NCBI RefSeq assembly: GCF_002087085.1
Contig: NZ_MWQY01000015.1
Coordinates: forward strand, 1 to 64,000
Direction: 5' to 3'
Source of the DNA: Marispirochaeta aestuarii
GTDB lineage: Bacteria > Spirochaetota > Spirochaetia > JC444 > Marispirochaetaceae
DNA: 64,000 bases
Under the pieces are notes generated by a model. It was not told where the DNA came from. It did not search any database and saw only the letters and a list, made by a program, of their open reading frames with translations. The translations under genes and the position numbers were made by a program. This document shows positions 56,177 through 58,224 of the stretch, piece by piece; position 1 is the stretch's first letter, and each line of letters begins with the position of its first letter.

Positions 56177-57853
56177 TCAGCCGACCCTGTTTATCGCGCT
56201 CAGAATTGCCTTGTAGGAGGCAAAGGTTATATCCGTATCGATTCCGGCGCCGAATACCCTTCGGTTGTCCCCGGTAATGACGGAAATATATGCCACCGCC
56301 TGGGCGTCGGCCCCTTCCTTGATGGCATGTTCATCGAAGGACTCAAACTGAAAGTCAAAATCCACATACTGTTTGAGGCCGTGAACGAATGCATCGATGG
56401 GACCGTTTCCCCGGCCTTCGATATCCAGTGCCTTTCCGTTTTTCAGGATTTTCCCCGTCACATTCGCCATATGCTTCCCGGAGGCTTTGTCTGTTTCCAT
56501 CCGAACATTTACGTCTTCGAGAGCGAAGGGCACGGTTGTATTCAGGTAGTTTTCTTCGAAGACTGCCCAGATCTCTTCCGGAACCAGCTCTTCTTCCCGT
56601 TTATCCGTCTCCTTCTGAATTAACAGACCGAATTCGGGATGCATTGCCTTGGGCAGGCTGAAGCCGAACTCGGTATCCATGATGTAGGCGACACCGCCTT
56701 TTCCCGACTGGGAGTTTATACGGACGATGGATTTGTAGGAACGTCCGACATCCCGGGGATCGATGGGCAGATAGGGAACATCCCAGATTTGTGATTCACC
56801 ATCCGTGCGGGCATGCATGCCTTTATTGATGGCATCCTGATGTGAACCGGAAAAGGCAGTGTATACAAGCTCGCCCACATAGGGATGCCGCGGATGAACA
56901 TCCATTCCGGTGCAGTAACGATAGACATCCCGAACATAGTTGATGTCGGTAAAATCGAGTCCCGGGTCAATTCCCTGGGAGAACATGTTCAATGCGATGG
57001 TCACCAGGTCGGCATTCCCCGTCCTCTCGCCGTTGCCGAAGAGCGTCCCCTCGACACGGTCCGCTCCCGCCAGGAGTGCAAGCTCCGTTGCGGCGATGCC
57101 GGTACCCCGGTCGTTGTGAGTGTGGAGGCTTACCTGCACGCTGTCTCTTTTATCCAGATGCCGGCACATCCATTCTATCTGATCGGCGTGAATATTCGGC
57201 GTGTGGGCCTCCACCGTTGCAGGCAGGTTTATTACCATCTGATGGTCCGGGGTCGGCTGCAGGACATCTATTACGGCGTTGCAGATCTCAGCGGCAAAAT
57301 CCATCTCGGTTCCGGTAAAGCTCTCCGGACTGTACTCATAACGGATTCCGGGATTTTCTTCGGCGTCTCCCAGCTCCTTCACCAGTCGTGCTCCGCTTAC
57401 CGCGATATCGATGATCTCTTTCCGGCTTTTTTTGAAAACCAGACGCCGCTGAGAAGTGGAGGTGGAGTTGTAAATATGTACAACGGCGTTTTTAACCCCT
57501 TTAAGGGAATCAAAGGTACGTCTGATCAGATGTTCCCTGGCCTGGACAAGGACCTGTACGGTAACATCCTCGGGAATGAGCTTGTCCTCGATCAGCTTCC
57601 GCATGAAATTGTATTCGATTTCAGCCGACGAGGGAAAGCCTACTTCAATCTCCTTGAAACCGATATCCGTCAGAAGTTTGAACATCATCAGTTTCTTTTC
57701 CATGTTCATGGGTACACTCAGTGCCTGGTTCCCGTCCCGCAGGTCGACGCTGCACCAGATAGGAGCTTTTTCAATAATTCTGTCCGGCCATGTTCTGTCC
57801 GGCAGGGGGATAGGCTCGTAACGCCGGTACTTGGTGTAATTCATGGTTTTCAT
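56177..57853 (-). CDS. leuA: 2-isopropylmalate synthase (LeuA type 2)
   Basis: A 558-residue enzyme joining acetyl-CoA and 2-ketoisovalerate, the first step of leucine synthesis. It opens with YTKYRRYEPIPLPDRTWP, the mark of the type 2 (actinobacterial and some other) LeuA. Active-site blocks are CSVDLRDGNQAL, SLHTHNDRGTG (HxH metal site) and GERTGNADLVTI. The C-terminal 130 residues form the leucine-binding allosteric domain. GGAGG lies 6 bases before the ATG at 57853 and touches the T-tract of a terminator, so expression is controlled by attenuation. Confidence 0.94.
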   Translation of the reverse strand: MKTMNYTKYRRYEPIPLPDRTWPDRIIEKAPIWCSVDLRDGNQALSVPMNMEKKLMMFKLLTDIGFKEIEVGFPSSAEIEYNFMRKLIEDKLIPEDVTVQVLVQAREHLIRRTFDSLKGVKNAVVHIYNSTSTSQRRLVFKKSRKEIIDIAVSGARLVKELGDAEENPGIRYEYSPESFTGTEMDFAAEICNAVIDVLQPTPDHQMVINLPATVEAHTPNIHADQIEWMCRHLDKRDSVQVSLHTHNDRGTGIAATELALLAGADRVEGTLFGNGERTGNADLVTIALNMFSQGIDPGLDFTDINYVRDVYRYCTGMDVHPRHPYVGELVYTAFSGSHQDAINKGMHARTDGESQIWDVPYLPIDPRDVGRSYKSIVRINSQSGKGGVAYIMDTEFGFSLPKAMHPEFGLLIQKETDKREEELVPEEIWAVFEENYLNTTVPFALEDVNVRMETDKASGKHMANVTGKILKNGKALDIEGRGNGPIDAFVHGLKQYVDFDFQFESFDEHAIKEGADAQAVAYISVITGDNRRVFGAGIDTDITFASYKAILSAINRVG

Positions 57854-57864
57854 TCTCTACCTCC

Positions 57865-57903
57865 AAAAAAAAATGCCATGGACCGTTTTTCGGCCCATGG
57901 CAT
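57865..57903 (-). terminator. leuA attenuator terminator
   Basis: On the minus strand a 13-bp stem (ATGCCATGG-G-CCG with CGG-T-CCATGGCAT, one G-U pair, loop AAAAA) is followed by nine Ts that end at the leuA Shine-Dalgarno sequence. It lies between the leader peptide and leuA and would stop transcription before leuA. Confidence 0.92.
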
Positions 57904-57956
57904 GCAGGTTACCTCTTCAAGGTTCTGAAGCTAACTTCCACCTTGCAGGCTGCATG
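57901..57956 (-). promoter_or_regulatory. Candidate antiterminator region of the leuA leader
   Basis: CATGCAG (minus strand, 57950-57956) can pair with CTGCATG (57901-57907), which takes the first three bases of the terminator arm. A separate CAAGGT/ACCTTG hairpin (57918-57945) lies between. The alternative fold is 7 bp only and is inference. Confidence 0.45.
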
Positions 57957-58029
57957 ATCCGGGCCCTGTTCCCAGTAGGAGGAGAGCGAGTAGGGATAGC
58001 AGCAGGCTGCGCAGAAGGTTAATCTTCAT
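57931..58029 (-). CDS. Leucine-rich leader peptide of leuA
   Basis: A 32-codon reading frame upstream of leuA encodes a peptide with 12 leucines, including the runs LLRSLLL, SLLA and LLLL, with three CTA codons. Its stop lies about 27 bases before the terminator stem. The likely role is to sense charged leucyl-tRNA: a ribosome stalled at the Leu codons would let the antiterminator form and leuA be read. The peptide also resembles a signal peptide with a Cys (GPGSC), so a tiny lipoprotein is the main alternative. No clear Shine-Dalgarno sequence is seen before the ATG at 58029. Confidence 0.75.
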   Translation of the reverse strand: MKINLLRSLLLSLLALLLLGTGPGSCSLQGGS

Positions 58030-58045
58030 AGTAAAAACCAAAGTA

Positions 58046-58058: not shown

Positions 58059-58224
58059 AGTTATTCAAGTAGAAATACTGTAATTCGCGAAAAAAATGAA
58101 TAAACATTACTGATTATTTTGATCGCAAAGACGAAAAATCTGCAAAAAATACAAAAACTGCAGGCGATTGTAATATTGTGCAGAAACTTCGTAATTCTCT
58201 ACAGCCGCCTCCCCTGGTTTTTGT

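Follow-up and report, generated by a model that had tools for sequence, protein, structure and literature searches.

A putative leucine-responsive leader-peptide attenuator upstream of type 2 leuA in Marispirochaeta aestuarii and related spirochaetes

The leuA gene of Marispirochaeta aestuarii is preceded, on the same strand, by a short reading frame rich in leucine codons and by a hairpin with a T tract, raising the question of whether translation of this frame controls leuA. A first-pass annotation of the window (the whole 64,000-nt stretch analysed here, positions 1 to 64,000 of contig NZ_MWQY01000015.1) proposed that the locus is a leucine attenuator acting on a type 2 leuA in a spirochaete-like genome. 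That proposal is supported by the recurrence of the leucine-rich frame and terminator in relatives, and the taxonomic placement also holds, the sampled class including the Spirochaetaceae assembly WGCU01000096.1 (locus L096, the same place as L009). Analysis of the sequence and its relatives makes it very probable that the element is a leucine-responsive, ribosome-mediated transcription attenuator of leuA.

The gene and all elements of the leader lie on the minus strand of the window. leuA (56177-57853) encodes a 558-aa 2-isopropylmalate synthase with HMGL-like, IPMS_D2 and LeuA_dimer domains, the last of these being the allosteric domain. Profile scores bore out its assignment to type 2: NF002991 (848 bits) and TIGR00970 (735 bits) both exceeded their cut-offs, whereas TIGR00973, which models type 1, scored far below. 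The enzyme catalyses the first committed step of leucine synthesis, which places the gene in the pathway of the amino acid that dominates the upstream frame. The upstream neighbours are dctPQM-type transporter genes, from 58290 onwards; since they are divergent, the terminator described below serves no other transcript. The other HMGL-like genes of the same genome (L002, L003 and L004) have no such leader.

The leader frame, MKINLLRSLLLSLLALLLLGTGPGSCSLQGGS followed by a TAG stop, occupies 57931-58029, with the stop codon at 57933-57931. The earlier count of 32 codons, 12 of them for leucine, is correct, as are its coordinates. Homologous leaders are found at L006 and L007, and the leaders of the two congeners read MKHNLLLSLLLSLLALLLLGTGPVSCSRQGGS and MKRELLLNLLLSLLGLLLLGEAPEPCRGTRGSA. 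A further in-frame ATG, at 58107, is situated upstream of the promoter; the congener sequences line up with the ATG at 58029. Codons 5-19 (57973-58017) form the predicted control region, in which 11 of 15 codons specify leucine. The frame is followed by an intrinsic terminator hairpin (57873-57903; 13 pairs, one of them G-U; −23.1 kcal/mol), whose arms ATGCCATGGGCCG (57903-57891) and CGGTCCATGGCAT (57885-57873) flank AAAAA. Nine T follow (57865-57873), the first being paired in the hairpin, and the tract abuts the leuA Shine-Dalgarno sequence GGAGG (57860-57864), exactly as first described.

An attenuator of this type also requires an alternative structure, and the first-pass annotation had pointed to a 7-bp pairing between 57956-57950 and 57907-57901. 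This pairing is exact and does enter the terminator arm, but the overlap amounts to just 3 nt (57901-57903), and the stems on either side of it had been missed. Folding of the leader RNA (z −4.3) places the pairing in an antiterminator that spans 57965-57892 and consists of three stems and a top hairpin. The outer stem joins GGCCCG (57960-57965) to TGGGCC (57892-57897), the latter within the 5′ arm of the terminator, and 94% of cells are paired across three congeners. The middle stem, which is the pairing noted earlier, joins CATGCAG (57950-57956) to CTGCATG (57901-57907); here all cells are paired in the three congeners, with two G-U changes. The inner stem joins CAAGGT (57940-57945) to ACCTTG (57918-57923) and is 83% paired. 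The top hairpin, GAAG-TTAG-CTTC (57927-57938), holds the leader stop codon inside its loop. With the outer stem included, the antiterminator covers most of the 5′ arm of the terminator. The pair changes in the three congeners were not above those in shuffles, the congeners being too few and too alike for covariation.

These elements suggest a switch that would be set by the first ribosome on the RNA. Transcription would begin some 3 nt ahead of the leader AUG, and the ribosome, with no Shine-Dalgarno sequence to bind, would load at the 5′ end. With charged Leu-tRNA ample, it would pass the leucine codons as far as the stop and mask the 5′ side of the antiterminator, such that the terminator would form before leuA. 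With Leu-tRNA scarce, the ribosome would stall in the leucine run, where rare CUA codons would raise sensitivity; the antiterminator (57965-57892) would then form first and sequester the 5′ arm of the terminator, and polymerase would continue into leuA. In folds with a ribosome placed on leucine codon 9 or 14, an antiterminator of about −37 kcal/mol forms before the 3′ arm of the terminator exists; when it sits at the stop codon, the terminator alone remains. If the whole leader is present and the ribosome is stalled, the terminator still forms at equilibrium, meaning that antitermination must be kinetic.

Whether the arrangement is conserved was addressed with a search using the LeuA of the window, which covered 395 genomes of the class and found a type 2 LeuA in 125 of them, with 118 readable upstream regions. 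Leader frames were picked automatically except for nine that were set by hand; one, at L049 in family f26, is doubtful. A leucine frame followed by an intrinsic terminator, with the terminator lying between the frame and the first gene as in the window, was present in 83 of the 118 regions. These come from 34 of the 42 genera and 17 of the 18 families sampled, with family f26 counted partly on the strength of the doubtful case. The gap between the leader stop and the terminator is short in these 83 regions (median 24 nt, interquartile range 21-32). The leader and a strong terminator occurred together in 70 regions, neither occurred in 23, and one only in 25 (Fisher test, 5.5e-8, with relatedness uncorrected). 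An alternative stem was found in many relatives: the 5′ arm of the terminator pairs with the sequence upstream better than shuffles do, at z −4.8 in the window, and 41% of the 83 leaders reach p ≤ 0.05. The excess is weak in many others (p 0.13 in the congener G001, and near zero in several genera).

The same comparison bears on the step at which leuA is controlled. Attenuation could in principle act on leuA translation, by masking of the Shine-Dalgarno sequence, instead of on transcription termination. As such a mechanism would have it, the T tract of the hairpin in the window abuts the Shine-Dalgarno sequence, where ACCT is paired with AGGT in the minimum-energy fold. In relatives, however, the distance from hairpin to leuA is often tens to more than 100 nt and a T tract follows the hairpin, an arrangement that fits termination and does not fit masking. 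We consider control by masking improbable and retain transcription attenuation as the preferred reading.

Two sets of loci from the same survey are of separate interest. In an assembly named Treponema sp. (L163), MIYTTLLLTLRVSACQASGVV lies 260 bases before leuA; this leader carries four CTA codons, its ATG directly follows a TTGACA-type promoter, and a terminator is present as well. At L008, L035, L036, L039, L040, L042 and L046-L048 (family f26, genera g27 and g54), the type 2 leuA has neither the leucine frame nor the terminator, and these genes offer a natural comparison for leuA control lacking both parts.

Among frames of 80 codons or fewer on both strands of the window, the leader is the only one to reach 7 leucines per 10 codons (it has 8); Markov copies of the window yielded about 0.1 frames per strand at 7 leucines per 10 codons and none at 8. 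In the upstream regions, frames with at least 5 of one residue per 10 codons were leucine-rich on the sense strand in 70 cases versus 2 on the antisense strand, the runner-up on the sense strand being alanine, with 7 regions. Codon choice is skewed too. Of the leucine codons in the leaders, 28.4% are CTA, compared with 2.9% of those in the leuA genes that they precede (p 2e-31). In the window, it provides 3 of the 12 leucine codons of the leader versus none of 36 in leuA, and 0.9% of the 1742 leucine codons across 38 open reading frames.

These data weigh heavily against the view that the frame is a short gene in its own right, ended by the hairpin, whose product would be a membrane peptide or a small secreted lipoprotein. 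A leucine-rich stretch followed by Cys does resemble a lipoprotein signal sequence, and the first-pass annotation had counted this Cys as a weak point. It is not conserved in relatives, being absent from many, and is best ascribed to chance. Outside the genus, the peptides have little in common beyond the leucine run, as the examples MNSGLSRILGLLLSLLLLLGTRGAGGPEPA, MKGTAFLLNLLLTLLLSLVKEVYGTELRSR and MKKTALLLLLGLLLDSQR from other families illustrate; many have no lipobox, and those of the Treponema type are only 16-20 aa long. Enrichment of the rare codon CTA is not something that protein function would demand, and the frame, the terminator and leuA occur together across 17 families. A pattern in which relatives keep a conserved lipoprotein with neither leucine run nor terminator is excluded by these observations, and we regard the lipoprotein explanation as very unlikely. 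A T-box or riboswitch that senses uncharged tRNA or leucine directly, with an incidental leucine frame, has a negligible chance of being correct: T-boxes are a common alternative in Firmicutes, where they precede leu and ilv genes, but the CTA enrichment and strand bias show that the frame is not incidental, and an Rfam search with the window leader matched no family, including T-box and RF00512, even at E 5. Searches of the window itself and of leaders from other families gave nothing at the gathering score.

The attenuator reading must also account for how the leader is translated, since its start in the window has no Shine-Dalgarno sequence. This had been noted correctly at the outset and listed as a weak point; absence is the rule in the class, however, and leaderless mRNA is its probable explanation. 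A Shine-Dalgarno-like sequence precedes the leader start in 9 of 76 cases, with 7 expected by chance, and precedes leuA in 72 of 76. In 58 of the 83 leaders, the end of the best promoter of the sigma-70 type is 3-12 nt from an in-frame start codon downstream, versus 10 expected at random. Together, the promoter geometry and the chance level of Shine-Dalgarno sequences suggest that leaderless mRNAs are the probable templates for most leaders, the leader AUG or GUG most likely being no more than a few nucleotides from the RNA 5′ end. In the window, a −35-like hexamer, TTGAAT (58063-58068), is separated by a 17-nt spacer from a −10-like hexamer, TACTTT (58040-58045), which ends 10 nt before the leader ATG; congeners and relatives have the same geometry, and the RNA start is predicted to be near 58032. 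The two hexamers together agree with the consensus at a modest 7 of 12 positions, so that the case for a leaderless start at this locus relies on the congeners and on the pattern seen throughout the class. Among other spirochaetes, Leptospira interrogans commonly has leaderless mRNAs, with about 440 reported (PMC5243855).

Similar arrangements were seen at other amino acid genes. In the same genome, the acetolactate synthase gene ilvB (L239; G000 contig C3, around 42000) has an isoleucine-rich leader, MLFNILSLIIILPIILIISPQSRGEYA, whose ATG directly follows a TTGACA-type promoter; a terminator is also present. Leaders rich in isoleucine, valine and leucine precede acetolactate synthase genes in both congeners and in about a dozen other genomes; at L238 and L286-L305, many of these short frames have a TTGACA-type promoter adjoining the start codon and, downstream, the T tract of a terminator. 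In some relatives, trpE is preceded by WW or WWW leaders with a downstream T tract (L244/L260 in G049, L247/L261 in G029, L262, L269 and L272), and Trp attenuators of the same design probably exist there. Two type 1 leuA genes (L025 and L031) have isoleucine- and leucine-rich leaders, MKTNSTRGLSLIIILLALVPAGRQEE and MNQLQGPIYLSLDILIIIEIIILSLGSFQKPGGE, followed by terminators. In other phyla (Chlorobi, Desulfobacterota, Opitutales and Deferribacteres), too, type 2 leuA sometimes has a leucine frame before it, as in the leucine-rich frames at L108, L112, L103 and L099 (Chlorobaculum, Opitutales, Desulfocapsa and Deferribacteres, respectively), with a TTGACA-type promoter close to the ATG in Opitutales. 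The trait is thus not confined to spirochaetes, though it is denser there.

On balance, and with some reserve, we favour the idea that these putative leu, ilv and trp attenuators form an old, class-wide regulon in which the leaders stand at the 5′ end of leaderless mRNAs and loading at the 5′ AUG is part of the timing of the switch. Recurrence before leu, ilv and some trp genes suggests that this is a main mode of amino acid control in the class. The leaderless design makes the coupling between loading of the first ribosome and transcription directly testable, and the pattern of promoter, frame and terminator supplies a simple rule by which annotation pipelines could catch small frames that they now miss.

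One close parallel to the proposed mechanism is the enterobacterial leu attenuator (leuL; RF00512, Leu_leader), which shares with the window a leucine-rich leader, rare CUA control codons and a terminator before a leucine gene; its antiterminator has a predicted counterpart in the window. The enterobacterial leader has a Shine-Dalgarno sequence, a longer 5′ UTR and a type 1 leuA within leuABCD; the leader of the window, by contrast, has no Shine-Dalgarno sequence and precedes a type 2 leuA. Only two leaders, both of the Treponema type, score against RF00512, at 28.6 and 24.1 bits, below its cut-off of 50. In Salmonella, changing the three CUA codons to CUG lowered the sensitivity of the leu attenuator, according to the account of Carter et al. 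given in PMC1183508. Rare leucine codons are also a feature of the Epsilonproteobacterial LeuL of Campylobacter jejuni, a 28-aa leader with 5 such codons before leuABCD, for which a short terminated RNA was seen by RNA-seq (PMC3847290); the phylum is a different one.

The termite hindgut is rich in spirochaetes, and one RNA motif from that habitat deserves comparison. The termite-leu motif (RF01730) is a candidate RNA known from termite hindgut only, and the main text of the paper describes no leader peptide (PMC2864571). It may have been an earlier glimpse of such terminators. A sub-threshold RF01730 match lies just upstream of leuA in G003; identity with the element described here was rejected, since RF01730 scored above the cut-off in none of the 395 genomes of the class. 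The LEU element upstream of actinobacterial leuA is a pseudoknot without the classical parts of an attenuator (PMC1262725).

A 2010 account named Proteobacteria and Actinobacteria as the only groups with demonstrated leader-peptide attenuation, and added a new case from Firmicutes (PMC2965389). In agreement with the first-pass annotation, the open-access literature, outside which older comparative surveys largely fall, yielded no relevant account of leader-peptide attenuation in spirochaetes. Precedents for the leaderless form come from actinobacteria: the ilvBNC attenuator of Corynebacterium glutamicum has a leaderless leader peptide, as PMC4046766 reports from Morbach et al. (2000), and PMC13236596 describes the mycobacterial polycysteine frames of Canestrari et al. 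(2020) as leaderless leader peptides. As proposed for the leader of the window, these are translated without a ribosome binding site and control amino acid genes; they concern other amino acids and belong to another phylum. Leader-peptide attenuation, and its leaderless form in actinobacteria, are thus already known; the apparent novelty lies in finding it in spirochaetes, throughout a class, in front of type 2 leuA and probably leaderless in most cases.
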